35,276 nt of DNA from a virus. A program made the translations under genes and the position numbers. Of the stretch, positions 8,651 through 33,273 are shown one piece after another (position 1 is the first letter of the stretch; every line of letters starts with the position of its first letter). A model generated the notes under the pieces. It was not told the DNA's origin, made no database searches, and was given only the letters and a program-made list of their open reading frames with translations. Location: positions 1 to 35,276 of IMG/VR virus record IMGVR_UViG_3300000553_000145; one strand, given 5' to 3'.

Positions 8651-11026
8651 TTATGAATTTAATTTTGCAAATACTGATAAGAATGTATCTAATTGATTTT
8701 CAGTTAATTTACTGTCATCTACGATACGATTCTCTGTAATCAAAGTTTTTGAAGGTTTCTCGTTTGTAAACCTTGCTAAATCTCTAGTTTGCCAGAAACT
8801 CTCAAATTTTTGTACTGTATCAAGAGTTGGAAATAATCTTGCTGATGTAACAATTTCTTTTTGAATATTGTTATCAATTTTTTCCCAAATTGGTTTTAAT
8901 TCTGATGGCATAGCATCTAATAATAAGTCATTAAATGATTTTCTTTTTGGTGAGAGAGCTTCATTCATTATTGCAATGACTTGAGCTTCGCTTGTATATT
9001 TCCCTTCGCTTTCTTTTAACGCGATTTTTACCTTTGTTTTATCTTCATTAGGTAACGCATAATATGCAGCTTTTCTCTTTTCTGTTAAGAAAAACATGAA
9101 ATGTGGTTGATCTTCTTCTGAAGCCTTTCTTTTTTTGGTTTCTAGGATCAAAGTATTTAAATTTTCTTTTAATGAGTTTTGAATTGTGTTTAATTTACTA
9201 ACACCTAATCTAGTAATTTTAGATTCATGTACTTCAACTGGCTCTTCTTGTGTATCTAATTGTACAACAATTAAACCGTTTTGTGGGTTAGTAGCAAGTA
9301 CTTCACCTGTATTATCACCAACAGCAACAGTTTCACCAGGTGTTGGTAATCCATTACCTACGCCTTCACCTTCTGCAGGTGCAGGTTCTTCGGTTGTTGG
9401 TTGTACTGGTTCTTCGGTTGGTAATCCTGGTTGTGGTACTTCTTCACCTTCTGGTGCTTGTTCACCATCAACTGGTTGTGTTTGAACTGGAGCCTGATCA
9501 ACAGGTTGTTCAACTGGTTGTGCTGGTTGTGTTGCACCTTCTGGTTGATCTTCATAATATTGATTAATATCAATATTTTTTACTTCTTCTTCAGTGATGA
9601 ATTCAAAGTTTTCTATAAGTTTACCAGATTTTAATTGTTCGGTTAAAAGTTTAGATCTATCAATAGTTTTATCTAGACTCTCGGCAATATAATTAGTGTA
9701 TGCCATGGAATCATCTAAATTTTCAGCAATATACTCTGAATAAGAAATATTATTATCAACATGTTCAGCAATGTATTCTGAATAAGCGATATTATTATCT
9801 AAGTTTTCAGCAATATATTCTGAATAAACGATTGAATTATCAAGACTTTCAGCTAAATACTCAGAATATTCAATTGAATTATCTAAGTTTTCAGCGATAT
9901 ATTCTGAATAAGCAATCGAATTGTCTAAATTCTCAGCAATATACTCAGAATAATCAATATTCTTGTCAAGATTTTCTGCTAAATATTCTGAATATTTGAT
10001 ATTTTTATCAACATGTTCTGCGATATATTCTGAAAAATCAATATTTTTATCCAAAGTTTCAGCAATGTACTTTCCATAATCAATAGATTTGTCAAGTGTT
10101 TCTGCCAAGTATTCTGAATAACTACCTATTTTTTCAAGATTTTCAGCTAGATAATCATTATGTTTAATTAAATCAGTTGTAGTTTTTTTCAACTCAACGT
10201 TTTCATTAACAACAATCTGAAGTTTTTCAGCCAAATAATCTAAGTATTTGGTCATTTTTGTTTGAGATTCTTGCAATTTCTCATAATAACTGAGCATACT
10301 TTCTAACTTTGTGAGATCAAAATCACCTTTACCCTTAATAGCATCATTAATTGTGGTTTTGAATTTTTCGATTTCCTCTGTTAAATAATTTGAATACTCA
10401 AGCATTTGTTTTTTTGTTACAAAGTCTTCGTTCATTTGAAATAATTCATTAATTTTTGACTCATCAGATATGTCATATATCCTAAAGTTGGCACTTTCAT
10501 GGAAACCTAAACTTTCGTTCAAGGATTTAACTTCCATTCTTGCTGAACTAAAGCCAGGATCAGCAACGGCATCATAAGTAAATAATTTCTTTACAGTTAC
10601 TGTACCATCGGATTCTGTAATGCCTGCAGCACGAGATGATACAAAAATTGGACAACCATCATTTACAAGAGCTTTAGCCTCTTTACCCCAATGGGTATTA
10701 AGCAATCGAATTTCACCCTTTACTACGTTTGTTTCTTTGTAATAAAAAGCCTTTTCAATTGTGTGTGAAACTCTTGATAATGAAGTATCAAAGACATCGG
10801 GATGATCAAATTCACCATATACAACACCCAATTGTTCTTTACGAGTTAATAATTCTTGTAAATGTGGTAAAAACTTTTCAGCAGTATAGATCCTATCATT
10901 TCTATTCTTGATATTAAATTCTGTGAAGGTTCCACCTAGGATGATTGAATCTTTAGCATAAGCAGTAGATTCTTGTAGTGGTTTAAGACCGTCCATGCAA
11001 TGTTCAACAATAAGGACTGGTTTCAT
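8651..11026 (-). CDS. 21: Prohead core protease (T4 gp21 type) fused to a repeat-rich scaffold region
   Basis: 791 residues, far longer than T4 gp21 (about 210). Residues 1-175 are the protease: MKPVLIVEHCMDGL, then GGTFTEFNIKNRNDRIYTAE, GEFDHPD (candidate catalytic His75), GCPIFVSSRAAG (candidate Ser130/131) and TYDAVADPGFS (candidate Asp156), as in the S80 herpes-like serine protease fold. Residues 200-288 are helical and charged. Residues 289-470 hold about twelve 14-residue repeats (YSEYIAENLDNSIA) plus one degenerate unit; two heptads per unit would suit a coiled coil. Residues about 493-560 are a Pro/Gln/Glu linker. The C-terminal ~190 residues (KRKASEEDQPHFMFFLTEKR and onward) are a further folded part, perhaps the scaffold's capsid-binding end. 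T4 places the separate scaffold gp22 between 21 and 23; no separate gp22 is seen here, so this gene probably supplies both. The protease call is firm; the scaffold role is inferred from position and composition. Confidence 0.9.
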   Translation of the reverse strand: MKPVLIVEHCMDGLKPLQESTAYAKDSIILGGTFTEFNIKNRNDRIYTAEKFLPHLQELLTRKEQLGVVYGEFDHPDVFDTSLSRVSHTIEKAFYYKETNVVKGEIRLLNTHWGKEAKALVNDGCPIFVSSRAAGITESDGTVTVKKLFTYDAVADPGFSSARMEVKSLNESLGFHESANFRIYDISDESKINELFQMNEDFVTKKQMLEYSNYLTEEIEKFKTTINDAIKGKGDFDLTKLESMLSYYEKLQESQTKMTKYLDYLAEKLQIVVNENVELKKTTTDLIKHNDYLAENLEKIGSYSEYLAETLDKSIDYGKYIAETLDKNIDFSEYIAEHVDKNIKYSEYLAENLDKNIDYSEYIAENLDNSIAYSEYIAENLDNSIEYSEYLAESLDNSIVYSEYIAENLDNNIAYSEYIAEHVDNNISYSEYIAENLDDSMAYTNYIAESLDKTIDRSKLLTEQLKSGKLIENFEFITEEEVKNIDINQYYEDQPEGATQPAQPVEQPVDQAPVQTQPVDGEQAPEGEEVPQPGLPTEEPVQPTTEEPAPAEGEGVGNGLPTPGETVAVGDNTGEVLATNPQNGLIVVQLDTQEEPVEVHESKITRLGVSKLNTIQNSLKENLNTLILETKKRKASEEDQPHFMFFLTEKRKAAYYALPNEDKTKVKIALKESEGKYTSEAQVIAIMNEALSPKRKSFNDLLLDAMPSELKPIWEKIDNNIQKEIVTSARLFPTLDTVQKFESFWQTRDLARFTNEKPSKTLITENRIVDDSKLTENQLDTFLSVFAKLNS
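9617..10162 (-). repeat. Thirteen in-frame 42-base repeats inside the protease/scaffold gene
   Basis: Tandem 42-base units encoding 14 residues each (consensus Y-S-E-Y-I-A-E-N-L-D-N-S-I-x), residues 289-470 of the gp21-like protein. Third positions vary while the peptide stays constant, so the repeat is held by selection on protein. Each unit contains I-A-E or L-A-E. Confidence 0.9.
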
Positions 11027-11038
11027 ATTTTTAATTTT

Positions 11039-11050
11039 CTTTTATATATA
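11039..11050 (-). promoter_or_regulatory. TATATATAAAAG late-promoter-like element and conserved leader of gp21
   Basis: Minus strand TATATATAAAAG followed by an A-rich leader to the ATG at 11026. The 27-base stretch up to and including the ATG differs at only one position from the leader of the 31549-31824 gene. Confidence 0.5.
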
Positions 11051-11163
11051 ACATAAAAAATATCATTTTTTTCTATTTTTGAATAAATAAAAGGATCTCA
11101 AAAAATGAATAAATTATTGTTGAATTTGACTAAACATGGACATCAAATTTTTATATATACAAT

Positions 11164-12798
11164 ATGATTCTTGATGAAAAACTAGAAATAAAAGTAAATC
11201 CTTCTAACATAAATCATTATAAAATTTTTTATAGCAACATAAGTGTTGGAGATTTAATTTTAGTTGATGTGGAACAATTAACGAAAGGTTCCAAATATGA
11301 AATAAAAATGAGATGTGATAAATGTTATAATGAACTTTATATACCGTATAATTTTTTATACAAAACCGATTCATTACATAATTTTATTTGTAAAAAATGT
11401 AAAAGAAAAAACACCAATCAAAAAAAATATGGAGTAGATAACGTTTTTCAATTAGAAAATATTAAAAATAAATCAAAAGAAACAATAAAAAATCAATACG
11501 GAGTAGATAATGTTTCTCAATCAGATAAAATTAAAAAGAAAAAAATAAACACATTTTTAAAAAAATATGGAGTAGAATGGGGATTATCTTCAGATATAAT
11601 TAAAGAAAAATCAAAAAAAACAATTAACAAAAAATATAATGTTGATAATATATCTAAATTAGACAACATCAAAAGGAAAAAGGAAGAAACATGTTTTAAA
11701 AATCATGGTGTAGATTATATATCTCAGCATGAAAATTTCAAAAAAAATTTAGACAAATTAATTTTAAAAAAATTACAGATAAAATATAAAAATTTATTAG
11801 ATATATCTGGTGACAATTTTACATTTTTTTGTGAAAAATGCGGAAAAGAATTTGAAATTTATAAAAAATCATTTTATACTAGGCATAATCTAAATATTGG
11901 TATATGCACTTTTTGTAATCCAATAGGTTCAGTACATTCGTCTGGTTCAGAAACAATTTTATATGAATTTATTTCAAATAATATAGATAAAGTTTGTATC
12001 AGAAATGTCAAAAATATAATTCATCCTTATGAATTAGATATTTATATTCCAGAATTAAAATTATCATTTGAATTTAATGGTTTATTTTGGCACAACGAGA
12101 ATAATGTTCATAAAAATTATCATTTATATAAAACTGAAAAATGTGAAAAATTAGGAATACAATTAGTACATATTTGGGAAGATGAATGGTTATTTAAACA
12201 AGAAATAATTAAATCTATGATTTTAAATAAATTAAATAAAACTCCTAATAAAATATATGCTAGAAAATGTGAAATTAAAGAAGTATTAGATAATAATTTA
12301 ATTAGAGATTTTTTAAATCAAAATCATATACAAGGTTTTATTGGAACAAAAGTAAAATTAGGTTTATTTTATGAAAACAAATTAGTTTCTTTAATGACTT
12401 TTGGAAATCGTAGAGTTGCAATGGGTAAAAAATCAACTGAAGAATATGAATTATTAAGATTTTGTAATAAATTGAATACTAATGTTATAGGTGGTGCAAG
12501 TAAATTATTCAAATATTTCATAAATAATTATAATCCTAAGAAAATTACGACTTGTGTGGATAGATCGTTCAGTCAGGGTAAATTGTACGAAATTTTAGGA
12601 TTTAGATTACAAAGTAAGACTCAACCAAATTATTATTATATTAAAAATAAAATTAGACAGCACAGATTTAATTTTAGAAAAGATATTTTAGTTAAAGAAG
12701 GATATGATTCAACAAAAACTGAACATGAAATAATGTTAGAAAGAAAAATTTCCAGAATTTATGATTCTGGAAATTTAAAATTTATATTTAATACTTGA
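11164..12798 (+). CDS. Hef-like homing endonuclease with zinc ribbons, KYGV repeats, PD-(D/E)XK core and GNAT-like tail
   Basis: 544 residues starting MILDEKLEIKV, the same opening as three relatives in this window. A CxxC...CxxC ribbon (MRCDKCYNEL...CKKCKRK) is followed by about five repeats of the type KKYGVDNVFQLENIKNKSKE. A second ribbon follows (FFCEKCGKEF...ICTFCNPIGS). The nuclease core at about 290-312 reads ELDIYIPELKLSFEFNGLFW. The C-terminal domain (about 380-500) has KLGLFYENKLVSLMTFGNRR, YELLRFCNKLN, GGASKLFKYF and KITTCVDRSFSQGKLYEILG, a GNAT-like fold common in such phage endonucleases. Closely similar to the 13847-15421 product. It is transcribed against the surrounding late genes, starts 137 bases from the divergent gp21 start and ends 2 bases before the convergent gene's stop. 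A TTATATATACAAT element sits right before its ATG. Confidence 0.8.
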   Translation: MILDEKLEIKVNPSNINHYKIFYSNISVGDLILVDVEQLTKGSKYEIKMRCDKCYNELYIPYNFLYKTDSLHNFICKKCKRKNTNQKKYGVDNVFQLENIKNKSKETIKNQYGVDNVSQSDKIKKKKINTFLKKYGVEWGLSSDIIKEKSKKTINKKYNVDNISKLDNIKRKKEETCFKNHGVDYISQHENFKKNLDKLILKKLQIKYKNLLDISGDNFTFFCEKCGKEFEIYKKSFYTRHNLNIGICTFCNPIGSVHSSGSETILYEFISNNIDKVCIRNVKNIIHPYELDIYIPELKLSFEFNGLFWHNENNVHKNYHLYKTEKCEKLGIQLVHIWEDEWLFKQEIIKSMILNKLNKTPNKIYARKCEIKEVLDNNLIRDFLNQNHIQGFIGTKVKLGLFYENKLVSLMTFGNRRVAMGKKSTEEYELLRFCNKLNTNVIGGASKLFKYFINNYNPKKITTCVDRSFSQGKLYEILGFRLQSKTQPNYYYIKNKIRQHRFNFRKDILVKEGYDSTKTEHEIMLERKISRIYDSGNLKFIFNT

Positions 12799-12800
12799 TA

Positions 12801-13286: not shown

Positions 13287-13300
13287 ATTAAATTTTTATT

Positions 13301-13310
13301 TTTATATATT
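13301..13310 (-). promoter_or_regulatory. AATATATAAA late-promoter-like element
   Basis: Minus strand AATATATAAA, 15-24 bases before the ATG at 13286. Same class as the elements before gp20, gp21 and gp23. Confidence 0.4.
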
Positions 13311-13323
13311 AAAATAATGTGGT

Positions 13324-13749
13324 TCACAAGTTATATTTTTTAGCATCTATATAATCTTGATATTTTTCATATTCTACCATATAATGATCGTTAATTATAT
13401 TATCAATAAATTTATAAATCATATTTTCTTCGTTATCTTTTAATATAATTTCTCTATAATCTTTTGTTCTTTTCAATAAATCTGAGACAGCATCATCAAT
13501 ATCATCACCGTTATCAATCTGTAAAATATCATATAGTTCTAAAGGACTATTACCTTGCCCACTAGGATAAAAATATTCATCTATAACATCTTCAGCAAAT
13601 TTCTTTATTAATTTATCAATTATAATATCTTTATTTTTAATATTTTCATCTTTAAAAAAATGTTTTAATGATTTTTTAAATTTTTTTATTAAATGATCTG
13701 GAAAATCTATTTCAATTCTTTTTTCAAAAATTTTAAAATTAGTTATCAT
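13324..13749 (-). CDS. Hypothetical protein with F-x-x-F N-terminal motif and C-terminal AKKYNL
   Basis: 141 residues, not recognised. It starts MITNFKIFEKRIEIDFPDHL, which fits loosely the short N-terminal motif seen on several small proteins of this window. The body is acidic and probably helical (LIKKFKKSLKHFFKDENIKN, DDIDDAVSDLLKRTKDYREI). It ends YIDAKKYNL, the same ending as two genes near 32.8 kb. It sits between portal and protease genes with a TATATAA element just upstream. Possibly a virion core component; the function is unknown. Confidence 0.65.
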   Translation of the reverse strand: MITNFKIFEKRIEIDFPDHLIKKFKKSLKHFFKDENIKNKDIIIDKLIKKFAEDVIDEYFYPSGQGNSPLELYDILQIDNGDDIDDAVSDLLKRTKDYREIILKDNEENMIYKFIDNIINDHYMVEYEKYQDYIDAKKYNL

Positions 13750-13846: not shown

Positions 13847-15421
13847 ATGATAATAACAGAAACAATAAAATTAAAAATGAACAGTAAAACGATATCACAT
13901 TATATAGAATTGGGTTATAATGTAAATGTAAATGAAATTTACGATATAAAGGTTAGTGATTTAACAAAAGGAAGTAAAGTAGAAATAGTTGCAAAATGTG
14001 ATATATGCGGCAAAGAAAAAAATGTACCATATAGAGAATATTGTAGAAACACTTCAAAATATGATATTTTTTGTTGCTCAAATAAATGTTCAACCATTAA
14101 GAATAAAAAAACATCATTAGAAAAATATGGAGTAGATCATTTCTCCAAGACAAATGAGTTCATAGAAAAAATGGAATCAACAAATTTTAATAAATTTGGA
14201 TTTGCTTACTATGCACAAACAAAAGAATATAAAGAAATTATAAAAAATAAAAATCTTGATTATAACACAAGAATAATAAAACAAAAAGAAACTTGTTTAG
14301 AAAAATATGGAACTGAGAATTATCACCAATCGGAAGAGTATAAATCTAAAAAAAATAATATAATTAATAAATACAAAACTACAGTAACAAAAAAATTATT
14401 AAAAAAATTTTCAAATTTAATTTCAACTGATAACAAGAATTATAAATTTTTATGTGAAAAGGGACATGAATTTGAATTATCTAGAGAATTATTAAAAAAT
14501 AGGTCTAAATTAACTACTAAAATATGTACAATTTGTAATCCAATAGGTTCCTCCAAATCTGGATATGAAATACAATTATTTGAATTTATATCAAATAATA
14601 TTTCAACAGAAATATTAAAAAATAACAGAACATTTTTAGATAATAAATATGAACTGGACATTTATTTGCCTGAATTGAAATTGGCATTTGAATTTAATGG
14701 TTTATACTGGCATAATGAATTAAATAAAGAAAATAATTATCATTTAGACAAAACTGAATTATGTAAATGTAAAGGTATACAATTAATACACATATGGGAA
14801 GATGATTGGACTTATAAACAAGAAATAATTAAATCTATTATTTTGAATAAATTAAATAAAACACAAAATAAAATTTATGTCAGAAAATGTGAAATTAAAG
14901 AAATATCTGATAATAAAATGGTTAATAAATTTTTGGATGAAAATCATTTACAAGGAAGTATAAATTCATCAATTAAAATTGGATTATTTTTTAATAATGA
15001 ACTATATTCATTAATGACATTTGGAAAACAAAGAATTTCATTAGGACAAAAAAGTATAAAACACACATATGAATTATTAAGATTTTGTAACAAATTAAAT
15101 ACCAATATTGTTGGTGGTGCTTCAAAACTTTTTAATTATTTTCTCAATGTTTATAAACCTGAAAAAATAATTACTTATGCAGATAGAAGTCATTCAAATG
15201 GTGACCTATATTATAAATTAAAATTTAATTTTATTTATAACACAATTCCAAATTATTATTATATTATAGATGGTATAAGACAAAATAGATTCAGTTTCAG
15301 AAAAGATATACTAATTTTAGAAGGATATGATCCATATAAAACTGAACATCAAATAATGACAGAAAGAGGTTATTATAGGATATACGATTCAGGATCAATG
15401 AAATTTGAAATGAACCCTTAA
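13847..15421 (+). CDS. Hef-like homing endonuclease, paralogue of the 11164-12798 gene
   Basis: 524 residues, starting MIITETIKLKMNSKTISHYI. Zinc ribbon (AKCDICGKEKNVPY...CCSNKC), about three KYGV-type repeats (LEKYGVDHFSKTNEFIEKME), a second ribbon (KICTICNPIGSSKSGYEIQL), nuclease core (YELDIYLPELKLAFEFNGLY) and a C-terminal GNAT-like domain (YELLRFCNKLNTNIVGGASK, IITYADRSHSNGDLYYKLKF). Similarity to the 11164 gene is strong from the second ribbon to the end and weaker in the repeats, as expected if the repeats set DNA specificity. It is on the plus strand and its stop overlaps the convergent portal stop by 3 bases. A TTATATATAAT element lies upstream of the ATG. It probably homes near the portal gene; the target is not visible. 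Confidence 0.8.
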   Translation: MIITETIKLKMNSKTISHYIELGYNVNVNEIYDIKVSDLTKGSKVEIVAKCDICGKEKNVPYREYCRNTSKYDIFCCSNKCSTIKNKKTSLEKYGVDHFSKTNEFIEKMESTNFNKFGFAYYAQTKEYKEIIKNKNLDYNTRIIKQKETCLEKYGTENYHQSEEYKSKKNNIINKYKTTVTKKLLKKFSNLISTDNKNYKFLCEKGHEFELSRELLKNRSKLTTKICTICNPIGSSKSGYEIQLFEFISNNISTEILKNNRTFLDNKYELDIYLPELKLAFEFNGLYWHNELNKENNYHLDKTELCKCKGIQLIHIWEDDWTYKQEIIKSIILNKLNKTQNKIYVRKCEIKEISDNKMVNKFLDENHLQGSINSSIKIGLFFNNELYSLMTFGKQRISLGQKSIKHTYELLRFCNKLNTNIVGGASKLFNYFLNVYKPEKIITYADRSHSNGDLYYKLKFNFIYNTIPNYYYIIDGIRQNRFSFRKDILILEGYDPYKTEHQIMTERGYYRIYDSGSMKFEMNP

Positions 15422-24609: not shown

Positions 24610-25002
24610 GTGAATAAATGGGCTTCATTATTTGATACAGAATTAAGCGGAAAAACTGATTGGTTATTACAATATACCAATAATTTAAATAACTCAGGAA
24701 CTAATTTTTATAAATCAATTTCTTCCGGTTATACCGGACAAACAATATCCTCCACCAGTTTCGGTAATCAAAATTTACTTCCAGTTTCTATAAAAATAGC
24801 AGCACAAACTATTGGTATGAATCTAGTTGCAGTAAAACCTATGAGTGCACCTATCGGTAGTATATTTGGAATGGATTTTGCATATGAAACACCAGAAGAA
24901 GGAAGGAAAAAGAAACGAAAAGAAAGATTAAAAAAATTAAATAAAATTCTTAGGAAAGAGAAATTAAAATATATAGATGAAATTCTTCAAAAAATAATAT
25001 AA
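24610..25002 (+). pseudogene. Truncated major-capsid-protein-like fragment (gp23/gp24 paralogue remnant)
   Basis: 130 codons from a GTG at 24610; TGA precedes it directly in frame, and an ATG four bases earlier (24606) gives only three codons in another frame, so the original start may have been lost by a frameshift. Residues 1-9 (MNKWASLFD) parallel gp23 NKWKPVLE. Residues 54-93 align without gaps with gp23 residues 90-129 at 26 of 40 positions (QNLLPVSIKIAAQTIG, then LVAVKPMSAP). The DNA is also close there (19 of 20 bases over the QNLLPVS codons). After AYETPEEG the match stops and a short Lys-rich tail follows (RKKKRKERLKKLNKILRKEK). It sits just after gp44, far from gp23. It may be a decayed duplicate, a remnant of a vertex protein (gp24 type), or a short functional N-terminal variant. 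Confidence 0.7.
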
Positions 25003-25292: not shown

Positions 25293-25712
25293 CTATTTTT
25301 TCATAACAAATACAATATCACCATAAGCATCTGTTGTATCACCACACAACCATTCTAACTCATGTTCAACAATTAAATTTGATATTTTGCTTTTCCAAAT
25401 ATCATTAAATTGTTTAGCCGCATGTAAAGGTTGATTGTTTTTAGCATAAAATGCAATTTTTTCATAATTTTTTTCATATGAAAAGCCAGCACAGTCTATA
25501 TATCCATAAAATTCATAGAGTTTTTTAAAATTTTCAATTTTTAAATCTCTTGAAATACTTGAAGGCCAAGATTTTTCAGTATTCCACACATAATCATCAT
25601 AAATACCTAAAGTAAAAGCGACACAATTAAAATTCCAAGTAGAAACATTTATTTTATAAGGTTTTCCAATTATGTTAGGAAACCAAATTTCTAAATCTTT
25701 ATTAGTAGCCAT
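25293..25712 (-). CDS. Hypothetical protein, resembles DUF7689-type 'NCxA' proteins
   Basis: 139 residues. The core WNFNCVAFTLGIYDDYVWNT, followed by SWPSSISRD and later AGFSYEKNYEKIAFYAKNNQ and HAAKQF..IWKSKISNLIVE, resembles small proteins with an invariant Asn-Cys near the N-terminus (DUF7689-like). A conserved Cys and His would suit a papain-like or structural site, but no activity is shown. It is co-directional with the upstream 99-residue gene and overlaps it by 11 bases, so the two are coupled. Confidence 0.65.
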   Translation of the reverse strand: MATNKDLEIWFPNIIGKPYKINVSTWNFNCVAFTLGIYDDYVWNTEKSWPSSISRDLKIENFKKLYEFYGYIDCAGFSYEKNYEKIAFYAKNNQPLHAAKQFNDIWKSKISNLIVEHELEWLCGDTTDAYGDIVFVMKK

Positions 25713-26001
25713 TTTCTTTCGACCATTTTTTCCAATATAACATTCTTTCTTTTGTGTTATACTTTAAAGGATCTAAACCTTGACCAGTAATTTCAGAAAG
25801 TGCATTATCCCAAAGTATATTATTTCTATTTAATAAATATGGTATAACTTTTTCGCCGATTTGAACTATACTTCTATATGATTTTTTTTTAGAAATCATT
25901 TCTAAGTCCGGTAAATTTGTATTTTCGGATTCCTCTATCAAATTATTTATCAATAATTTATCATTATTAATAAATTCATTAAATTTATTTACTTTTGTCA
26001 T
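25702..26001 (-). CDS. Hypothetical protein with capsid-targeting-like N-terminus, paired with the NCxA gene
   Basis: 99 residues. Begins MTKVNKFNEFINNDKLLINN; FNEFIN fits the short N-terminal motif of other small proteins here. The C-terminal part (SYRSIVQIGEKVIPYLLNRN, then LWDNALSEITGQGLD) resembles a short helical-repeat sequence found in many small proteins ('GEKAIPYLL...W..AL..ITG'). It overlaps the next gene by 11 bases. Partner or inhibitor of the NCxA protein is a possible reading, inferred only from the overlap. Confidence 0.65.
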   Translation of the reverse strand: MTKVNKFNEFINNDKLLINNLIEESENTNLPDLEMISKKKSYRSIVQIGEKVIPYLLNRNNILWDNALSEITGQGLDPLKYNTKERMLYWKKWSKENGY

Positions 26002-26005
26002 ATTT

Positions 26006-27121
26006 TTATTTTATTTTATATATTATTTTTAGGAAGTCATCATAATTTTTATCAATTATATATTGAAAATTAAAACCTTCATTTAATGTTGCTTTTTCTT
26101 TTTCTATACATCTATCTTTATGTAATTCATATATGTATGTTGATTTAACTTCAACTATTAAATTATATTTCTTCAAATAAAAATCTGAAAAGTAAAATTT
26201 TTCTTTGTCTAAATACGTATATTTGATGGTCTTGCCTCTTTTTACTTCTAAATTTAATTTTTGACACAAATCTAAAAAATCTTTCTCATATGTGCCTTGA
26301 TAATTAATACCTATTTCATGCATTTTCATTTTAGGAAATTGCTTCTTATGAATTTCAAAATTTTGTGATGGAAAATCAACACCATATCTTTCATTACAAG
26401 TTATTTTAGATTTAGTTTTATATTCTTCTGTTGAGAGATATGAAGATTTACCATATCTTTTTAAACAGGTTTTAGCAACTCTATTTTGGAAATCCTTTGA
26501 TTGTGAGCAATGATCAAATCCATATTCTTTTTTATTATTTTTATTTCTTTTTATTAAAACATCCTTAGACTGTGTAGGCCACTCTACATCATTATTTTCA
26601 AAGCAAGTTTGTTTAGATTTTTCGCGATTTGTAAAATTTTCATCACCATATTTTTCTTTTTTTGTCTTTTTTGCAATATCTTTTATTTTTTCTGATTGAA
26701 AAACATTTTCAGTGCCCCAATTTTTTAAATTTGTCTCCTTTTTCTTATCTTTGATTTCTTTTGATTGTGATACATTTTCAACACCATATTTTTTTAAATT
26801 TGTTTGCTTAGATTTTTCTCTATTTGTAAAATTTTCATCACCATATTTCTGTAATTTGGTTTTTTTAGATTTTATAGTTTTACATTTTTCACAAGAATAA
26901 AAACCACCTCTTTTTACATTATTCATATATGAAATATGTTGTATAGAATTAATTGAACCACAAATATCACATTGCACATCTATTAATAATTTATAACCTT
27001 GAATTATATCCTTAGTATATATTTCCGCAAATTCTTTTAATTCAACATCATAACCAATATCATTGTAATAATTTATATTTGTTCTATTTATTTTTACTTT
27101 GATTTTTTCTGTTAGTATCAT
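26006..27121 (-). CDS. Homing-endonuclease-like protein: zinc ribbon, eight KYG repeats, PD-(D/E)XK nuclease
   Basis: 371 residues from MILTEKIKVKINRTNINYYN, matching the starts of the 5526, 11164 and 13847 proteins. Zinc ribbon VQCDICGSINSIQHISYMNN with later SCEKCKTIKS. Eight repeat units follow (LKKYGVENVSQSKEIKDKKK, KEKYGDENFTNREKSKQTC, LKRYGKSSYLSTEEYKTKSK, ...), some near-identical to each other (ENFTNREKSKQT occurs twice). The nuclease core at about residues 310-335 is FYFSDFYLKKYNLIVEVKST. It lacks the C-terminal GNAT-like domain of its relatives. It lies between the small coupled pair and the divergent RNase H gene. Mobile in origin; the target is unknown. Confidence 0.8.
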   Translation of the reverse strand: MILTEKIKVKINRTNINYYNDIGYDVELKEFAEIYTKDIIQGYKLLIDVQCDICGSINSIQHISYMNNVKRGGFYSCEKCKTIKSKKTKLQKYGDENFTNREKSKQTNLKKYGVENVSQSKEIKDKKKETNLKNWGTENVFQSEKIKDIAKKTKKEKYGDENFTNREKSKQTCFENNDVEWPTQSKDVLIKRNKNNKKEYGFDHCSQSKDFQNRVAKTCLKRYGKSSYLSTEEYKTKSKITCNERYGVDFPSQNFEIHKKQFPKMKMHEIGINYQGTYEKDFLDLCQKLNLEVKRGKTIKYTYLDKEKFYFSDFYLKKYNLIVEVKSTYIYELHKDRCIEKEKATLNEGFNFQYIIDKNYDDFLKIIYKIK

Positions 27122-28194: not shown

Positions 28195-28243
28195 TTTTCC
28201 TATTTTTTTATAAAGTGTGGTACTCCTCAATTTGAGCGGAGCG

Positions 28244-28273
28244 GAGCAATTTTGAAAGAAATTGCTCTTTTTT
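28244..28273 (+). terminator. Intrinsic terminator after the RNase H gene
   Basis: Stem GAGCAATTT / AAATTGCTC with a 6-base loop, then a T run. A short GAGCG-GAGCG-GAGC repeat precedes the stem. It overlaps the stop region of the convergent 28272-28595 gene. Confidence 0.85.
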
Positions 28274-28595
28274 ATTGATAGACTTTTATTTTCTTTGAAC
28301 CATTTTCAAAATGTTTATTACGAACAATTATGGTTTTATTATCTTTCTCATTATCAAAAGCAATCCAACCTTTTTTCTTCTTGTCACCATTCCAACCGAA
28401 GCCATCTAAGTTAGTATAAAGATATCCTTTTGCTTTTATTTCTGATTTACCATCTTCTGATTTAACCAATTTAAAATCAGTCACTAATGTCGTTGGACGA
28501 TCATTCAAATCTTTTATGATTATCTTATAATCTACTGTTTTAAATTTACCTTTGATTTCATTTTCAAAAACAAAGTTTTCATATTTTTTTAACAT
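28272..28595 (-). CDS. Hypothetical protein with capsid-targeting-like N-terminus
   Basis: 107 residues. Begins MLKKYENFVFENEIKGKFKT; YENFVFE fits the N-terminal motif shared with other small proteins here. The rest looks all-beta (VDYKIIIKDLNDRPTTLVTD, KAKGYLYTNLDGFGWNG, GWIAFDNEKDNKTIIVRNKH), as in a small beta sandwich. Not recognised. Starts 1 base after the previous gene's stop, so the two are probably co-translated. Confidence 0.65.
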   Translation of the reverse strand: MLKKYENFVFENEIKGKFKTVDYKIIIKDLNDRPTTLVTDFKLVKSEDGKSEIKAKGYLYTNLDGFGWNGDKKKKGWIAFDNEKDNKTIIVRNKHFENGSKKIKVYQ

Positions 28596-28596
28596 T

Positions 28597-29046
28597 TTAC
28601 AAATTATATTTATTCATTGAAGTGTATAGTTCTATTTCCTCTTGTGTTAATTTTACTACGCCCATATATTTATATCCTCTTCTATATCTAAGATCATCAA
28701 AACCTTTAAGTCTTTTGTCATGTTGCCATTCCATCCAAGACCATTCATCACTCATCCATGTATTTTTATCTTCTGATTTGAAATTTTCATTATGCCAAAT
28801 TTCTATAAAATGACTTTTACCTCGAAGCAGTAATAGAGGTCGACGGACAGCAATTAATCCTCGTCTTTTACATATTTGAATATCTAAAAAGATATCTTTT
28901 GGTGCACCAAGTTTATCAAGAGATGCTTTTATGATATCTAAATTATCAGCCTTTATTTTCCAATAATATCTACCTGATATTGGTTGTATATTTTTATCAA
29001 CACTTGCATCTCTTTCTTTTTGAAAATCTCTTTCAAATTGTTGCAT
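28597..29046 (-). CDS. Hypothetical protein ending in NKYNL
   Basis: 149 residues: MQQFERDFQKERDASVDKNI, SGRYYWKIKADNLDIIKASL, DIQICKRRGLIAVRRPLLLL, EWSWMEWQHDKRLKGF, and KLTQEEIELYTSMNKYNL at the end. Rich in Trp and Arg; not recognised. Its last codons AAATATAATTTG lie directly before the next gene's start and match the sequence context of the 'KKYNL' genes near 32.8 kb. Its own start overlaps no other gene; a terminator of the upstream gene lies 35 bases before it. Confidence 0.6.
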   Translation of the reverse strand: MQQFERDFQKERDASVDKNIQPISGRYYWKIKADNLDIIKASLDKLGAPKDIFLDIQICKRRGLIAVRRPLLLLRGKSHFIEIWHNENFKSEDKNTWMSDEWSWMEWQHDKRLKGFDDLRYRRGYKYMGVVKLTQEEIELYTSMNKYNL

Positions 29047-29081
29047 TGTTAATTCAAATAATTTATATTTTATAATGTTTA

Positions 29082-29102
29082 AAACCCTGCCCAGCCGGGT
29101 TT
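29082..29102 (-). terminator. Probable terminator of the lipoprotein-like gene
   Basis: Stem AAACCC / GGGTTT with a 9-base loop and a short T run on the minus strand. It lies in an unusually GC-rich patch. It overlaps the end of an alternative reading frame (stop at 29080). Confidence 0.6.
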
Positions 29103-29160
29103 CAGAGTTAGTTGCACGTTGGAATTGTCAAAACCATAACCGGGAATGGTAAAATCATAA

Positions 29161-29835
29161 TTAAAATTCTCCACCAGTTTTTCCTGAACCGCCCCCACCA
29201 AATTTTCCACCACCTAGTCCGTTCACACTAATAATATACAAATTTTTATTTATTTTTTCACAAATATAAGTTCCTAAATTATTATCTGTTAATTTAAATT
29301 CCTCACCTTCTGGTTTTGCATTCTTTTTATTTACTATAATATATTTAAACGGTGATGAGGAAAAAAGTCCTTTAATTTTATATGTTGTATAATTTGGTGT
29401 ATCATCATCTACTTCTAAATCGCTCATTTTAATTAAATGTGCACCCTTAAAAGGTTTAGGACTAGCATATGTACCACCGAAAGTTTTATCATAATACCAA
29501 ATAAATTTTACAACTGAAGGAATAAATAGATTATAAATTTGATGTGTTACTGTGTGTCTGTGTTTTCCACTACCATGACTTTCTGAATAACTGTGATAAG
29601 CTACCATAAAATCATCATTAACAGTTAATTTAAAAGTTTGTCCTTCAGCACATAATTCATATTCCTTAAAAGTTTGATTCCCAATCTGTTCAGTTTTATC
29701 TAATTCTGCAAAACCTTTATGTGTATCACATCCACCAAGAGCAACTGAAGCACCAAGCATCGCACCCAAAGCAGCAGTTTTAAAATTTAACTTCTCATCA
29801 ACAAATTCTTCATATTTAAGAACTTTTGTTTCCAT
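29161..29835 (-). CDS. Putative lipoprotein with a capsid-targeting-like leader
   Basis: 224 residues. Residues 1-14 (METKVLKYEEFVDE) carry the [FY]-x-E-F-x-x-E motif seen on other small proteins here. Residues 15-36 (KLNFKTAALGAMLGASVALG then GC) form a good lipoprotein signal with lipobox A-L-G-G-C (Cys36). Then come a His-rich stretch (SESHGSGKHRHTVTHQIYNL), a beta-rich body and a Gly-rich end (GGGKFGGGGSGKTGGEF). If the first 14 residues are removed by the prohead protease, the rest would begin directly with a standard type II signal peptide. Location at the inner or outer membrane of the host would follow from lipidation. An alternative frame continues past the stop (29080-29160). Function unknown; exclusion of later phages is one idea only. 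Confidence 0.7.
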   Translation of the reverse strand: METKVLKYEEFVDEKLNFKTAALGAMLGASVALGGCDTHKGFAELDKTEQIGNQTFKEYELCAEGQTFKLTVNDDFMVAYHSYSESHGSGKHRHTVTHQIYNLFIPSVVKFIWYYDKTFGGTYASPKPFKGAHLIKMSDLEVDDDTPNYTTYKIKGLFSSSPFKYIIVNKKNAKPEGEEFKLTDNNLGTYICEKINKNLYIISVNGLGGGKFGGGGSGKTGGEF

Positions 29836-29976
29836 ACAAAACCATTTTTCTTTATATATTATTTTTAATTATTCAAATTTTTACCTGACAATTTGACATA
29901 AACTTTTTGAAAAAATGTCACTAAATATCATTGGTATAAAATTTGACTATATTTAAATAAAAATAATTATAAAAAT

Positions 29977-30414
29977 ATGAACAGAAATTTAATGAAAACA
30001 GAAAACAGACCTTTCTTTGATTTAGCAAGAAGGTTTTTTAACGAAGATTTCAATTACTTCGACTCTCCATTATTTACAACAAAAAATGGTGGATTGTCAA
30101 ACATTTTAGAAAAGGAAAACGAGTATCTTATTGAACTTAGTGCGCCTGGTCTCAAAAAAGAAGATATTAAAATAGAACTAGATAATGATATTTTAAGAAT
30201 TTCTTCTGTGTACGAGGACGAAAAAGAAGAAAAAAATGATGGATATTATAGAAGAGAATTTTATAAATCTAGTTTTGAGAGAAGTTTTTTAGTACCTAAA
30301 ATTGCCGATAAAAATGCAATTTCTGCCACTATGATTGATGGTATTTTAACAGTATCAATTCCTAAATTAAAAGAAGAAAAAAAACTTAGTAATATTGAAA
30401 TCAAAATTAAATGA
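29977..30414 (+). CDS. Small heat-shock protein, Hsp20 / alpha-crystallin family
   Basis: 145 residues. The alpha-crystallin domain runs from about residue 40 to 140: EKENEYLIELSAPGLKKEDI, IELDNDILRISSVYEDEKEE, YYRREFYKSSFERSFLVPKI, ATMIDGILTVSIPKLKEEK, the final G-I-L-T-V-x-I-P being the family signature. The N-terminal arm contains FFDLARRFFNEDFNYFDSPL. It prevents aggregation of unfolded proteins; Hsp20 genes are common in T4-like cyanophages. It lies alone on the plus strand among minus-strand genes. Upstream, ATTTGAC occurs twice (29892 and 29941 regions) together with TATAAAA and an inverted TGACAT/ATGTCA, possible early promoter parts. Two terminator-like hairpins follow. Confidence 0.93.
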   Translation: MNRNLMKTENRPFFDLARRFFNEDFNYFDSPLFTTKNGGLSNILEKENEYLIELSAPGLKKEDIKIELDNDILRISSVYEDEKEEKNDGYYRREFYKSSFERSFLVPKIADKNAISATMIDGILTVSIPKLKEEKKLSNIEIKIK

Positions 30415-30446
30415 ACTACTACTACACTAAAGATGTAGTTGTTTTC
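30414..30446 (+). terminator. Hairpin after Hsp20 (ACTACA/TGTAGT)
   Basis: Stem ACTACA / TGTAGT with a 7-base loop, extended by a few outer pairs, then TTGTTTTCTT. Nearly the same sequence occurs in opposite orientation at 34567-34598. Confidence 0.55.
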
Positions 30447-30460
30447 TTACGGTATCTATA

Positions 30461-30488
30461 AAAAAAGAGCCTCACGGCTCTTTTTTTT
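30461..30488. terminator. Bidirectional terminator between Hsp20 and the 30487-31251 gene
   Basis: A6-GAGCC-TCAC-GGCTC-T8: the stem is flanked by an A run and a T run and lies between two convergent genes. Confidence 0.9.
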
Positions 30489-31251
30489 AGAAAGGCTGTT
30501 TATTTTCGCCTTTTTCAAAATCCAATTTTCTTAAATCTGGTTCTGTACCTTTTTCTTCATCAAATTTATCAACTTTAGTCATCCAATTATCAAAATCCTC
30601 AATCAAAAACTTTTCCATGATTTCTTTATATTTCTCAAAAAGAATATCTTCAATATTAAATTCTCTTTGTTCCAAGAATATATGTGAATCTGCAACATCT
30701 TCGTCGAAAACTTCAATCGGAATTCCACTTGCGTCATTGAAAAATGGTGTTGCCTTTACAATAATACCTTCTTGATCATTTGCAAATTCGAAAATTCCTT
30801 CTGATGGATCGTGAATAAATTCAAAATCACCAATTTTCTTATTTTCATTCAATTTTTTAGCAAAATAATTAAGAATTTCTGCTCTATATTGATCAGTAAT
30901 AGAATTTTCTTTAATAGATTCTCTCAAAATGAAATTGCTTCCGATTTTAATTTTAGTTAAATTATCAATCTGTTCATTCAACCAATTCATATCAAAATTT
31001 CTATATACATTTTTCTTAACCGTTTCTAAAGTAAAGGTTCTTTCTTTAATTCTAACATCATCTAATAAACCTTTAATTTTTTCGACTAATTCTTCTTTAC
31101 CATTGATATTAATATCTTTGTCTAAAGATTCTTCATTTGAAATTTTGATTGATAATGAACTTTCTATTAAAGAATAAATTTCGTTCCTTAATGAATCTTT
31201 CAATTCATATTTTGGTTTTACTTCTTCGTGTAAAGTACTAAATTTTTTCAT
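30487..31251 (-). CDS. Hypothetical acidic protein
   Basis: 254 residues, rich in Glu, Asp, Lys and Ile. Begins MKKFSTLHEEVKPKYELKDS, only loosely like the short N-terminal motif of its neighbours. A central part (GIFEFANDQEGIIVKATPFF followed by NDASGIPIEVFDEDVADSHI) could be a beta-rich domain; the flanks are helical. Not recognised. It shares its downstream terminator with Hsp20 and lies 28 bases below the 83-residue gene with the same orientation. Confidence 0.65.
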   Translation of the reverse strand: MKKFSTLHEEVKPKYELKDSLRNEIYSLIESSLSIKISNEESLDKDININGKEELVEKIKGLLDDVRIKERTFTLETVKKNVYRNFDMNWLNEQIDNLTKIKIGSNFILRESIKENSITDQYRAEILNYFAKKLNENKKIGDFEFIHDPSEGIFEFANDQEGIIVKATPFFNDASGIPIEVFDEDVADSHIFLEQREFNIEDILFEKYKEIMEKFLIEDFDNWMTKVDKFDEEKGTEPDLRKLDFEKGENKQPF

Positions 31252-31279
31252 ATTCCTATTTTATTTTTATTTTTATTTA

Positions 31280-31531
31280 TTAGTATTTATCAAGGGAACG
31301 CTGATAAGATTCACCAGCCGCAATATAATTATAAATTATTTCTGCTGCTTCTTCTGGTGAATTAGATGTAATTATATCTAAAATTCCATCATAATCATAT
31401 GTTTCACTATCATTTAAGTCTTGATCATTTAATGTTGGTCTTTCTCCTGTAACATCGTTCAATTCATCATCACTAAATCCACTATCCATTATTTCTTCAT
31501 TTAAAAATTCACCAAAATTTTTAGTTTTCAT
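31280..31531 (-). CDS. Small acidic protein with capsid-targeting-like N-terminus
   Basis: 83 residues: MKTKNFGEFLNEEIMDSGFS, then an acidic low-complexity stretch (DDELNDVTGERPTLNDQDLN) and a helical end (SPEEAAEIIYNYIAAGESYQ). FGEFLNE is one of the clearest cases of the shared N-terminal motif, and L-N-E fits the gp21 cleavage rule. Not otherwise recognised. Its ATG is 17 bases after the upstream gene's stop. Confidence 0.65.
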   Translation of the reverse strand: MKTKNFGEFLNEEIMDSGFSDDELNDVTGERPTLNDQDLNDSETYDYDGILDIITSNSPEEAAEIIYNYIAAGESYQRSLDKY

Positions 31532-31548
31532 ATTTTATTTTTATTTTT

Positions 31549-31824
31549 TTACCTGTAGGTATAACCAGTTCTCAAATCCCATCTTAAACCAGATAGTTGC
31601 ATATAATATTGATTATCAATTTGAATTGCTGGATAAGCATTTTGTAATGTAGTGCCTGTTACATATGGATATGAATATATAAGTACACCACCTACAACAG
31701 TTTTTCTTTTTATTGACCACAATGGATCTGAATCCTGTGTTCCTGCTACTGAATAGCCATAATATGTTGTTGCTGTTAGAGAATCACCATTCCAAGGATC
31801 TATTCTTTGAGGTTCTACTGCCAT
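31549..31824 (-). CDS. Small probable virion protein
   Basis: 91 residues: MAVEPQRIDPWNGDSLTATT at the start, DSDPLWSIKRKTVVGGVLIY in the middle, NQYYMQLSGLRWDLRTGYTY near the end. The 'DPLWSIKRK...GG' type segment occurs in small beta-rich virion or tail-associated phage proteins. The leader (TATATATAAAAG and the A-rich bases to the ATG) is almost identical to that of the gp21 gene, which supports late expression. Exact role unknown. Confidence 0.65.
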   Translation of the reverse strand: MAVEPQRIDPWNGDSLTATTYYGYSVAGTQDSDPLWSIKRKTVVGGVLIYSYPYVTGTTLQNAYPAIQIDNQYYMQLSGLRWDLRTGYTYR

Positions 31825-31836
31825 AATTTTAATTTT

Positions 31837-31848
31837 CTTTTATATATA
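31837..31848 (-). promoter_or_regulatory. TATATATAAAAG late-promoter-like element and conserved leader
   Basis: Minus strand TATATATAAAAG 13-24 bases before the ATG at 31824. With the following A-rich leader it matches the gp21 leader in all but one of 27 positions. Confidence 0.5.
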
Positions 31849-31881
31849 AATTTTTTAAAGTTAGATTATATATAAATAAAA

Positions 31882-31907
31882 AAAGCCAGTATTTTCATAC
31901 TGGCTTT
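31882..31907 (-). terminator. Intrinsic terminator after the 31918-32541 gene
   Basis: Stem AAAGCCAGTAT / ATACTGGCTTT with loop TTTC and a T run on the minus strand. It ends the four-gene run 33273-31918. Confidence 0.9.
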
Positions 31908-31917
31908 CTTTCTTTAA

Positions 31918-32541
31918 TTATCTGTTTTTATAATCTTCTATTCTTATTGTATGAAAATTATGGGCATTTAATAATCTAGGTATCCAAAATTTTTCATATT
32001 CATTAAATCTCACACATGCTGTTTTTATACTGGGATCTCGACCAACATTAAACCAAACCATTTCGTTTTTTGTATATTCTTTATCAATAAATATAAAATC
32101 AGTATCTTCATCATCATCAGAGTAGTGGACTATTTTAGCATCTAATATGTTTTTAATAATGTTATGTATTTGGGATTTATCGAAATCTGGATAATTTTTT
32201 TCTATAAAATAATACAATTCTATCCAATTTATAAGAACCACAGGTCCCCTTTCACTTACATCAATAGTTTTATTTAGATTTTTATTAGCATTTTTACTCC
32301 ACTCTTTTTTATCATCTTCACCTTTTTGTTTCCATTTATTAATTAAATTCTTTGTTTTCTCATCTTTCACAGGAACTTCTTTCACAGTAGATTTTTCAAT
32401 TTTTTGCTTATCCAAATTGACATTATGTGGATCATTTAAATAATCTCTTTCTTTTTTTGATAAATTTTCCAAACCTTTATCAATTAATCCATCAATTATT
32501 TCCTGATCGAATTTTTCATTAAATTCCTTATATTTTTTCAT
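31918..32541 (-). CDS. Hypothetical protein with capsid-targeting-like N-terminus
   Basis: 207 residues. Begins MKKYKEFNEKFDQEIIDGLI (YKEF motif). Residues 30-100 are charged and probably disordered or helical (KKERDYLNDPHNVNLDKQKI, KEVPVKDEKTKNLINKWKQK). The C-terminal half looks globular (PVVLINWIELYYFIEKNYPD, DTDFIFIDKEYTKNEMVWFN, ending RLLNAHNFHTIRIEDYKNR). Not recognised. Its ATG overlaps the stop of the previous gene (ATGA), directly after the AAAAAATATAACTT sequence that encodes that gene's KKYNL end. Confidence 0.65.
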   Translation of the reverse strand: MKKYKEFNEKFDQEIIDGLIDKGLENLSKKERDYLNDPHNVNLDKQKIEKSTVKEVPVKDEKTKNLINKWKQKGEDDKKEWSKNANKNLNKTIDVSERGPVVLINWIELYYFIEKNYPDFDKSQIHNIIKNILDAKIVHYSDDDEDTDFIFIDKEYTKNEMVWFNVGRDPSIKTACVRFNEYEKFWIPRLLNAHNFHTIRIEDYKNR

Positions 32542-32795
32542 AAGTTATATTTTTTTATATCTGTCGCCAATTCTGTGTCACCGGTTTCTCTGTATGCTTC
32601 CAACCAATCTTTTAATTCATTTTTTTCTTTATCTTGATAAGTCCAACTTTGTTTGAGTACTTTCCATAAAATCAGAAAATTCGTAACCATATTTATCAAA
32701 TCAAATTCTTTTTGTGATATAGTTATTATCTCATCATCATTTGGATAGCCAATTAAAGAATATGTTTTTTTAAAATCCTCATAAATTTTTATCAT
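32538..32795 (-). CDS. Small hypothetical protein ending in KKYNL
   Basis: 85 residues: MIKIYEDFKKTYSLIGYPND at the start (YEDF motif), ISQKEFDLINMVTNFLILWK in the middle, helical, and TGDTELATDIKKYNL at the end. Starts and ends with ATGA overlaps to its neighbours, so three genes are translationally coupled here. Not recognised. Confidence 0.65.
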   Translation of the reverse strand: MIKIYEDFKKTYSLIGYPNDDEIITISQKEFDLINMVTNFLILWKVLKQSWTYQDKEKNELKDWLEAYRETGDTELATDIKKYNL

Positions 32796-33043
32796 AAGTT
32801 ATATTTTTTTGCATCTAGGTATAATTCTGGATTACTTGTGTAAATTACTAATTTTTCAAAATCTTTTTGATTTAACACATAAGAGCCCATCAACGATTTA
32901 AGTTTTATCGTTTTAACTTTAACAGTACCAAACTTACCAGTACCAACAACAACTATTTCGAAGTCTATAATTTTAGATTCAATTAAACCTTCACAAAAAT
33001 TTTCATTTTCAGGCAATTTCATAAAATCATTTATATAACTCAA
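32792..33043 (-). CDS. Small hypothetical protein ending in AKKYNL
   Basis: 83 residues if read from a TTG at 33043 (reads L/MSYINDFMKLPENENFCEGL); an ATG at 33022 gives 76 residues. The AG-rich stretch before the TTG and the wish to keep the gap to the upstream gene small favour the longer form slightly; the start is open. The body is beta-rich (IIDFEIVVVGTGKFGTVKVK, TIKLKSLMGSYVLNQKDFEK) and it ends LYLDAKKYNL. Its TGA overlaps the next ATG. Not recognised. Confidence 0.6.
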   Translation of the reverse strand: MSYINDFMKLPENENFCEGLIESKIIDFEIVVVGTGKFGTVKVKTIKLKSLMGSYVLNQKDFEKLVIYTSNPELYLDAKKYNL

Positions 33044-33066
33044 TATTTCTTCTTTTTTCTTCTTTC

Positions 33067-33273
33067 TTAGTTTATTCCTTTTTTATCAAATTTAATTGAA
33101 TATTCATAATATTCTATTGTATCTGTTTTAGGAAGATCACACCAATCTGCTTCACCTACTAAATTAAAATAATCAAATAATTCTCCTTCAGTAAAAAAAT
33201 CTGGATATATAATAAAAGAATTGCAGTAAGGCTTTTGTATAGTATAATCTTCAAAAATTTTTAAATATTTCAT
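33067..33273 (-). CDS. Small hypothetical protein with MKYLKIFEDY start
   Basis: 68 residues: MKYLKIFEDYTIQKPYCNSF, then IIYPDFFTEGELFDYFNLVG and YYEYSIKFDKKGIN. The start has the I/F-x-x-F-E pattern of its neighbours. First gene of the coupled run 33273-31918; a TTTATATATAA element lies directly before the ATG. Not recognised. Confidence 0.6.
   Translation of the reverse strand: MKYLKIFEDYTIQKPYCNSFIIYPDFFTEGELFDYFNLVGEADWCDLPKTDTIEYYEYSIKFDKKGIN

Follow-up and report, generated by a model that had tools for sequence, protein, structure and literature searches.

The capsid-targeting sequence of the bacteriophage T4 internal proteins IPI, IPII, and IPIII was reportedly described by Mullaney and Black in 1996. 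Within the IPIII leader, positions 4 and 7 control targeting, and positions 8 and 10 control processing (PMC9026906); these positions hold Tyr, Phe, Ile, and Glu, respectively. Each of the three proteins inhibits a type IV restriction enzyme; related phages are reported to have at least 10 T4-type internal proteins in all; and T-even internal-protein genes have already been found by their signal (PMC12373910 for all three points). The head proteins of phages phiKZ and SPN3US provide a second precedent: a prohead protease cuts after Glu, and a targeting role has been proposed, according to PMC5694885 and PMC10052503. However, six of eight SPN3US N-terminal propeptides span 111-254 residues, and the substrates identified number nine in all (PMC10052503). 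The present analysis concerns the virus record IMGVR_UViG_3300000553_000145 (the window, meaning the whole stretch of 35,276 bases; 26.5% G+C), where one gene joins a gp21-type prohead protease to scaffold-like repeats and a set of small proteins begin with similar short peptides. We give a probability of about 0.76 to the reading that these peptides address proteins to the capsid as the leaders of the T4 internal proteins do, in a system that a clade of huge phages has greatly expanded.

The likeness to the T4 internal proteins has several parts: an N-terminal location; a length of about ten residues; two aromatic residues three apart; unrelated protein bodies; and a gp21-type protease. The motif [LI]-x-E at the leader end is also shared, although in IPI it does not lie within the first ten residues. 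The differences concern number and variety. T4 has three internal proteins, whereas the clade has tens to more than 100 per genome, in genome-specific dialects; some of the clade carriers are conserved enzymes; and many carriers in some genomes also bear a C-terminal tag. For the head genes, the protease domain family and the neighborhood with portal and major capsid genes resemble T4 gp21 and gp22, but the clade has one fused protein, with leader-like repeats that are absent from T4 gp22. By analogy with gp22, the clade scaffold would be cut to peptides. Because T-even internal-protein genes were found by their signal before, the idea itself is known; the scale and the setting appear to be new. 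A literature search of titles and abstract starts retrieved no description of such leaders in huge phages, though subscription journals lay mostly outside its coverage and absence from print is not established.

The annotated phage records nearest to the window, judged by protease-scaffold and capsid proteins, are LR756501 (W01; 735,411 bases), LR745206 (W02; 634,780), LR756502 (W03; 642,428), LR756504 (W04; 636,363), and LR756500 (W05; 462,018). Genes were called with a simple purpose-written gene finder (ATG start in 38 of 40 window calls), and a 10-residue motif was learned, unsupervised and per genome, from residues 2-25 of the proteins. Motif log-likelihoods were 544 for W01, 803 for W02, and 350 for W05, versus 171-195 for shuffled N-termini or internal-Met segments. 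When models trained on half of the genes were used to score the other half, leaders were found on 97 of 855 proteins in W01, 118 of 828 in W02, and 35 of 596 in W05 (expected: 4.3, 4.1, and 3.0), or roughly 6 to 14% of proteins. The bodies attached to these held-out leaders form 70, 110, and 25 families, respectively, by BLASTP. The three models are [IL]-K-K-[FY]-x-x-[FY]-x-x-E (W01), K-[YH]-[LI]-K-x-[FY]-[EN]-E-[FS] (W02), and K-Y-I-K-E-Y-[EK]-[ED]-F-[LI] (W05). They are three dialects of one theme: a lysine-rich start, two aromatics usually three apart, and then often [IL]-x-E.

The window was scored with models trained on W01, W02, and W05 only, with shuffled N-termini and internal-Met segments as controls. 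An earlier note on this DNA had listed eight N-terminal peptides, four of them as looser matches. All eight are encoded at the starts it gave, and the 1% control threshold of 8.5 is passed by these eight proteins and by no other window gene (8 of 38; 0.4 expected). Thus, the four looser peptides (starting at 32541, 32795, 33273, and 13749) pass too. Five of the eight also exceed the 0.1% threshold. The gene at 30487-31251 would have been the ninth but falls just short at 1% (8.4 versus 8.5). Scoring without the initial Met retains seven of the eight (31918-32541 fails). The bodies were said to be unrelated, and indeed no two of the eight fall in one body family. The signal extends beyond the window: in the pooled window clade (928 genes in 478 body families, each represented by a single member), 88 of 478 families match, versus 4.8 expected, and in 180 kb of W04 unused in training, 33 of 180 genes pass (1.8 expected).

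De novo learning within single smaller genomes gave few held-out matches: 0 of 221 in T4, 7 of 332 in KVP40, 1 of 260 in PTm1, and 15 of 534 in Lak-A1 (2.7 expected). The corresponding counts for four other sequence sets were 9 of 198 (G001), 2 of 197 (G002), 0 of 99 (G003), and 3 of 122 (G006). Such genomes probably hold too few carriers to learn from, so the models from the three big genomes were used instead. When the pooled clade was split into halves of 239 families, a de novo model made 29 and 24 held-out matches (1.2 expected per half); it was dropped, as the halves settled at different offsets and only three window matches were obtained, one of them off the earlier list.

Low G+C (23-32% in the clade genomes examined) raises the question of whether AT-rich coding sequence yields N-termini rich in K, F, Y, I, N, and E by chance. 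The shuffled N-termini and internal-Met controls, drawn from the same proteins, refute this, and Lak-A1, at 26% G+C, has no match among 533 proteins at the 0.1% threshold. Moreover, in a genome-wide count over the three huge genomes, N-termini show the tight pattern [FY]x[EDNQKS]F[ILVM]xE at 39 to 82 times its frequency in protein interiors. The motif is therefore not a composition effect, as the earlier note had allowed that such a count might reveal, and we regard the chance explanation as negligible.

A second explanation places the sharing in the DNA: a dispersed repeat, recombination site, or translation-start element at the gene ends. Leader genes do often adjoin one another, and certain codons are overrepresented in the leaders (AAG, GAG, and TAC in W05; ATA and TTA in W01 and W02). 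However, the other leader codons in W01 and W02 are used near the genome average, and the first 30 bases after the ATG include no duplicates among 107 (W01) or 141 (W02) leader genes, with two among 46 in W05. Near-average codon use points to a signal carried by the peptide. For the leader, the DNA-level explanation is largely refuted, and overall we consider it very improbable. A TATAAT promoter was also considered as a rule for leader genes. The hexamer occurs upstream of leader genes versus others at frequencies of 0.48 versus 0.23 in G001, 0.35 versus 0.23 in W05, and 0.06 versus 0.11 in W01; W01 shows no enrichment, and no clear rule emerges.

The comparison with T4 was blind, because T4 was unseen in training. 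Among 222 T4 genes, the W01 model scores gp61.1 at 17.2, IPIII and IPII at 16.2 each, and IPI at 12.4, with the next gene at 7.9. The three models together place exactly these four above the 0.1% threshold (4 of 220 genes; 0.2 expected). The resemblance to the T4 internal-protein leader, which the earlier note had pointed out, is thus recovered by a ranking that puts IPI, IPII, and IPIII in the top four of 222. Many of the huge-phage leaders have the T4 layout, with aromatics three apart followed by [IL]-x-E. In KVP40, 5 of 330 proteins lie above the 0.1% threshold (0.3 expected).

The remaining T4 protein of the four, gp61.1 (NC_000866, 18966-19130; 54 residues; annotated as hypothetical), begins MKTFKEFIKED, fully like a capsid-targeting sequence, and ranks above IPI-III. 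We predict that it should be a further internal protein. A literature search naming T4 gp61.1 returned matches among which, as listed, the term is absent. The gene adjoins 61.2, whose product is an inhibitor of DarT toxins (PMC9391042).

An early [LI]xE occurs in 66 of 108 leader proteins versus 125 of 595 others in W01, 74 of 141 versus 125 of 571 in W02, and 33 of 46 versus 111 of 450 in W05. These shares of 61%, 52%, and 72%, versus 21-25% of others, are partly built in, since the E belongs to the models; they also leave a sizeable minority of leader proteins without the strict motif. The residue after the E lies outside the W01 model, and there it is mostly A, G, E, S, or N in leader proteins, versus I, L, N, E, or F in others. 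The W02 excess of S at this position is partly in the model. The major capsid protein (6713-8557, minus strand; PHROG 138, major head protein, E 4e-24) also bears on the protease, with a propeptide cut inferred at LNE43|N. The pattern [LMIV]NE|N recurs near residue 43 in 24 of 25 aligned major capsid proteins; W05 has LYE|N. Its counterpart in the propeptide region of T4 gp23 is AFGSFLTE|A, which we take to be the gp23 cut site. Given this conservation and the likeness to gp23, the clade protease probably follows the T4 cutting rule.

The leader behaves as a detachable module. Pfam analysis of ten leader proteins picked by eye finds that a domain starts at residue 16-39 in five: glutamyl-tRNA synthetase (27), tRNA nucleotidyltransferase head domain (39), NUDIX (25), SMODS-associated NUDIX (16), and a DHH match from residue 30 that is below the Pfam cut-off. 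The other five chosen proteins have no Pfam domain near the N-terminus. Leaderless homologues tell the same story: for 34 of 424 leader proteins, a leaderless relative matches from its own N-terminus, with the leader protein at least 9 residues longer. Such pairs number 51, beside 250 pairs in which both partners carry leaders and 215 of other kinds. In 33 of the 51 pairs, involving 24 proteins, the extension measures 9-45 residues, and in the remaining 18 it is longer; examples are glutamyl-tRNA synthetase (W01 versus W02), leucine-rich-repeat proteins within W05, and paralogues within W04. Of the 245 body families shared by two or more of W01, W02, W05, and the pooled window clade, 9 carry the leader throughout, 42 in part, and 194 not at all. 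The leader thus comes and goes. Taken together, these comparisons support the leader as a genuine N-terminal module, and it looks selected as a peptide.

The carriers are mostly orphans. In W01, W02, and W05, 295 proteins score above 11, and length and position left 224 of them suitable; 140 drawn at random from the 224 match 42 Pfam families, versus 100 for 140 length-matched leaderless proteins. Named carriers among the matches listed (first 25 families) include leucine-rich-repeat proteins (5) and NUDIX proteins (2), with one each of RNA ligase, polynucleotide 3'-phosphatase, tRNA nucleotidyltransferase, and glutamyl-tRNA synthetase. Genes held in common with other phages rarely carry the leader: it is found on 13 of 335 proteins with a BLASTP match in T4, KVP40, PAU, PTm1, or Lak-A1, versus 281 of 1943 others (P 2e-9). 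Requiring a match in at least three of the five leaves 114 proteins, of which only two carry the leader; by eye, both are probable false matches.

These features suggest a model by analogy with T4, in which we infer that leader proteins would be trimmed, packaged, and injected. The aromatic part of the leader would dock the protein onto the prohead core; the prohead protease would cut after the leader E; and the released protein would stay in the head, to enter the host with the DNA as part of an early-acting toolkit.

The window protein at 8651-11026 (minus strand; 791 residues) consists of a prohead protease fused to a scaffold-like repeat region and a C-terminal domain. Residues 2-278 match PHROG 207, head maturation protease (E 4e-30). 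Residues H75, S130, S131, and R132 are invariant among 22 aligned protease sequences, and the conserved residues correspond, as read by eye, to T4 GELNHP and SSRGLG; H75 and S130/S131 are presumably catalytic. The repeat region (residues 211-449; 9680-10396, minus strand) is mostly of period 14, with the unit YSEYIAENLDNSIx; an example is YSEYIAENLDNSIA. The earlier note counted about twelve Y-S-E-[YF]-[IL]-A-E units in a gp21-like protein. Both the repeats and the identity stand: Y[IL][AT]E occurs 14 times between residues 214 and 449, twelve of them at exact 14-residue spacing, with Y-S-E-Y-[IL]-A-E exact in eight units and FSEYIAE in one. An AlphaFold2 model of the fusion from 17 sequences is poor (mean predicted local distance difference test score 50.7; predicted template modeling score 0.20); its sole usable part is the long helix predicted for the repeat region, which is briefly interrupted (238-380, 384-466). 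The same fusion with similar repeats is present in W01, W02, W03, and W04. The W05 repeats are degenerate: by eye, 9 of 9 units keep [YH]-x-x-[YH]-[ILV] and 5 of 9 lack the E. The long protease proteins of Tenacibaculum phage PTm1 and Prevotella phage Lak-A1 have no such repeats, again by eye.

In the proposed scheme, the 14-residue YSEYIAE units would form a docking surface as well as further cut sites. The earlier note had proposed a peptide code based on likeness between leaders and repeats. The likeness holds for the W01 leader dialect. When proteins are ordered by how many of their internal windows exceed the 99.9% level of the W01 model, the scaffold protein comes out on top in the window (7 windows) and in W02 (4), but not in W01 or W05. 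Of seven repeat units drawn from the window, W01, and W02 and compared with shuffled units, six resemble the W01 model (P 0.003-0.06). The seventh, the window's own YSEYIAENLDNSIA, shows no likeness to that model (P 0.30), and of four W05 units, two are near P 0.03 and two are not significant. For the W02 and W05 dialects the likeness fails: by those models the scaffold protein is outside the top four in all four genomes, and no repeat unit falls below P 0.07. Co-variation of leader and repeat across phages was looked for and not seen, as the W01 and W02 repeats stay alike while the leaders change. T4 scaffold gp22 has no leader-like motif, although T4 has leaders. The mirror between leader and repeat is therefore real for one dialect and is not seen for the others, a partly supported claim. 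Docking on the repeats is the least certain step of the scheme; we would place it somewhat short of an even chance.

Alternatively, leaders and repeats might share only a recognition site for the prohead protease, a likeness between substrates that involves no docking of one on the other. Both contain [LI]-x-E, the T4 capsid protein has the same kind of string at its presumed cut site, and the repeat units match one leader dialect only. On the other hand, the conserved part of the leader reaches upstream of any T4-type cut motif, to a K and two aromatics; the T4 leader separates targeting (positions 4 and 7) from processing (8 and 10); and the W05 repeats keep [YH]-x-x-[YH] in units that have lost the E, which is unexpected for pure cut sites. 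A T4 IPIII leader with its E changed to Asp is reportedly packaged uncut. We consider this explanation unlikely.

A separate 207-residue protein in W01 (619760-620383) contains a stretch rich in glycine and serine, followed by three units of the scaffold type; DPYGEEDW lies close to its C-terminus.

Several observations weigh against capsid targeting by these leaders. A 683-residue T4 protein, which we take to be Alt and likewise a trimmed head protein, ranks 149th of 222 by the W01 model, so not every packaged T4 protein is detected. Phages with the same protease family give little signal: at the 1% threshold, Lak-A1 has 16 of 533 (5.3 expected), with none remaining at 0.1%, and PAU and PTm1 have 2 of 262 and 5 of 260, respectively (2.6 expected each). 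Some matches, such as an SbcC-like protein and an AAA protein, are probably false. Capsid cargo would not be expected to include glutamyl-tRNA synthetase, RNA ligase, or tRNA nucleotidyltransferase. Among the 34 proteins with leaderless homologues, 14 have more than 45 extra residues in at least one pair, and more than a leader differs in those pairs. Finally, the dominant W02 leader, MK[YH]LKx[FY]NES, differs from the T4 leader, and the W02 scaffold units are unlike it.

In several lineages there is also a mark at the other end of the protein. KYNL-type C-terminal tags end four of the 38 window genes, all on the minus strand: KKYNL at 13327-13341 (gene 13324-13749), 32541-32555 (gene 32538-32795), and 32795-32809 (gene 32792-33022, whose leader score of 7.8 is below threshold), and NKYNL at 28600-28614 (gene 28597-29046, without a scored leader). 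In G001, 22 of 197 genes with 22 different bodies end in KYNL (0.008 expected), including 14 of 35 leader genes versus 8 of 162 others (P 3e-7). In G006, KFN[LI] ends 12 proteins, 11 of which have a leader, and in W05, G[FL][FLI]DN ends seven proteins of five body families, six with a leader. In G002, KYN[LIF] endings are rare (2 of 195), and most short contigs have none. The W02 ending L..LGI, on 11 proteins of 10 body families, represents a possible second class of C-terminal mark; none of these proteins has a leader, so the link between tag and leader is not universal. The W01 ending GRFGL was rejected as a tag because it belongs to one paralogous family.

The DNA-level explanation bears on the tag as well. 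In G001, the tag codons for K, Y, and N are in line with those of the whole genome, but the leucine is encoded by TTA in all 22 genes, versus 63% genome-wide, and 15 of the 22 have an ATG close to the stop. Overlap with the start of the next gene would explain part of the tag, and a DNA-level part is therefore possible; the other seven genes have no adjacent ATG.

W01 has a further short motif, DPYG[ED][ED], with 106 copies spread over 91 of the 856 proteins called; the copies are encoded by 49 different 18-mers and are followed by x-W in most of the matches listed. The specific form DPYGEE is found on 39 of 149 leader proteins versus 52 of 705 others (P 1e-9). DPYG[ED][ED] was not found in W02, W05, G001, or G002.

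The second tag and the carriers that are metabolic or RNA enzymes, useful within the cell, could mean that the leader sends proteins elsewhere: to a replication compartment, the membrane, or a degradation or assembly partner. But the blind match retrieves three T4 internal proteins, and the leader end fits the prohead-protease motif. A membrane address is further disfavored by the scarcity of hydrophobic segments near the N-terminus of leader proteins (2 of 404, versus 50 of 2296 others). Such a destination thus seems improbable, and capsid targeting is preferred.

Because the leader is found on many unrelated proteins, it is fair to suppose that a large part of the hypothetical genes would be cargo, as the earlier note had proposed for the window's 28-33 kb region. 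There, 6 of 11 called genes (28-33.3 kb) pass the leader threshold. A fuller scheme can be offered tentatively, and we rate it as rather doubtful in its entirety: in the largest known phages, a two-ended address, N-terminal leader plus C-terminal tag in several lineages, would mark 10-20% of the proteome as cargo for loading onto a scaffold of tandem leader-like peptides, followed by trimming and injection. Among this cargo would be tRNA and RNA enzymes for repair or charging, leucine-rich-repeat proteins, and anti-defence proteins. Most huge-phage genes have no known function, and an N-terminal address would list likely host-delivered proteins from sequence alone. By the precedent of the T4 internal proteins, many leader proteins are suggested as new anti-defence proteins; and a large share of the unknown genes of huge phages may be cargo injected into the host.

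The window leader proteins, all encoded on the minus strand, are mostly small. The highest score (15.2) belongs to the 107-residue protein at 28272-28595, which begins MLKKYENFVFE; all four homologues found retain the leader with altered sequence (scores 15.1-16.0). The 207-residue protein at 31918-32541 (MKKYKEFNE) scores 14.3 with the Met and 3.5 without it; the 68-residue protein at 33067-33273 (MKYLKIFEDY), 13.9; and the 83-residue protein at 31280-31531 (MKTKNFGEFLNE), 13.4. The 99-residue protein at 25702-26001 (MTKVNKFNEFINND; 12.8) has a G003 homologue that also carries a leader (13.2). Two proteins have the tag KKYNL as well as the leader: 13324-13749 (MITNFKIFE; 141 residues; 11.9) and 32538-32795 (MIKIYEDF; 85 residues; 9.2, the weakest of the eight). 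PHROGs yielded one weak match, for 25702-26001 (phrog_26480, unknown function; E 0.0026), and none for the other seven.

In the protein at 29161-29835, the leader (METKVLKYEEFVDE; 13.5) is followed by a lipoprotein-type signal with lipobox Cys36. It is the sole leader-positive protein among 22 lipobox-like proteins in 3386 scanned. Cutting after Glu14 would leave a lipoprotein signal of the usual length, a single case.

The prohead protease gene lies in the neighborhood of the portal and major capsid genes in the window. An own-pattern search of the window record gave no match and was uninformative. A 130-residue protein (24610-25002) repeats, by eye, the capsid stretch NQNLLPVS.KIAAQTIG. and has a lysine-rich tail; its body family is the same size as that of the capsid protein, although direct matching to the capsid protein at 1e-10 does not return it. 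W01 and G001 yielded matches to partial capsid-like proteins of 188 and 153 residues, respectively. One large family has five window members (3556-5526, 5695-6645, 11164-12798, 13847-15421, and 26006-27121), several of which sit among head genes and two of which are encoded on the other strand; it forms a body family of 56 in the pooled contigs and is endonuclease-like by eye only.

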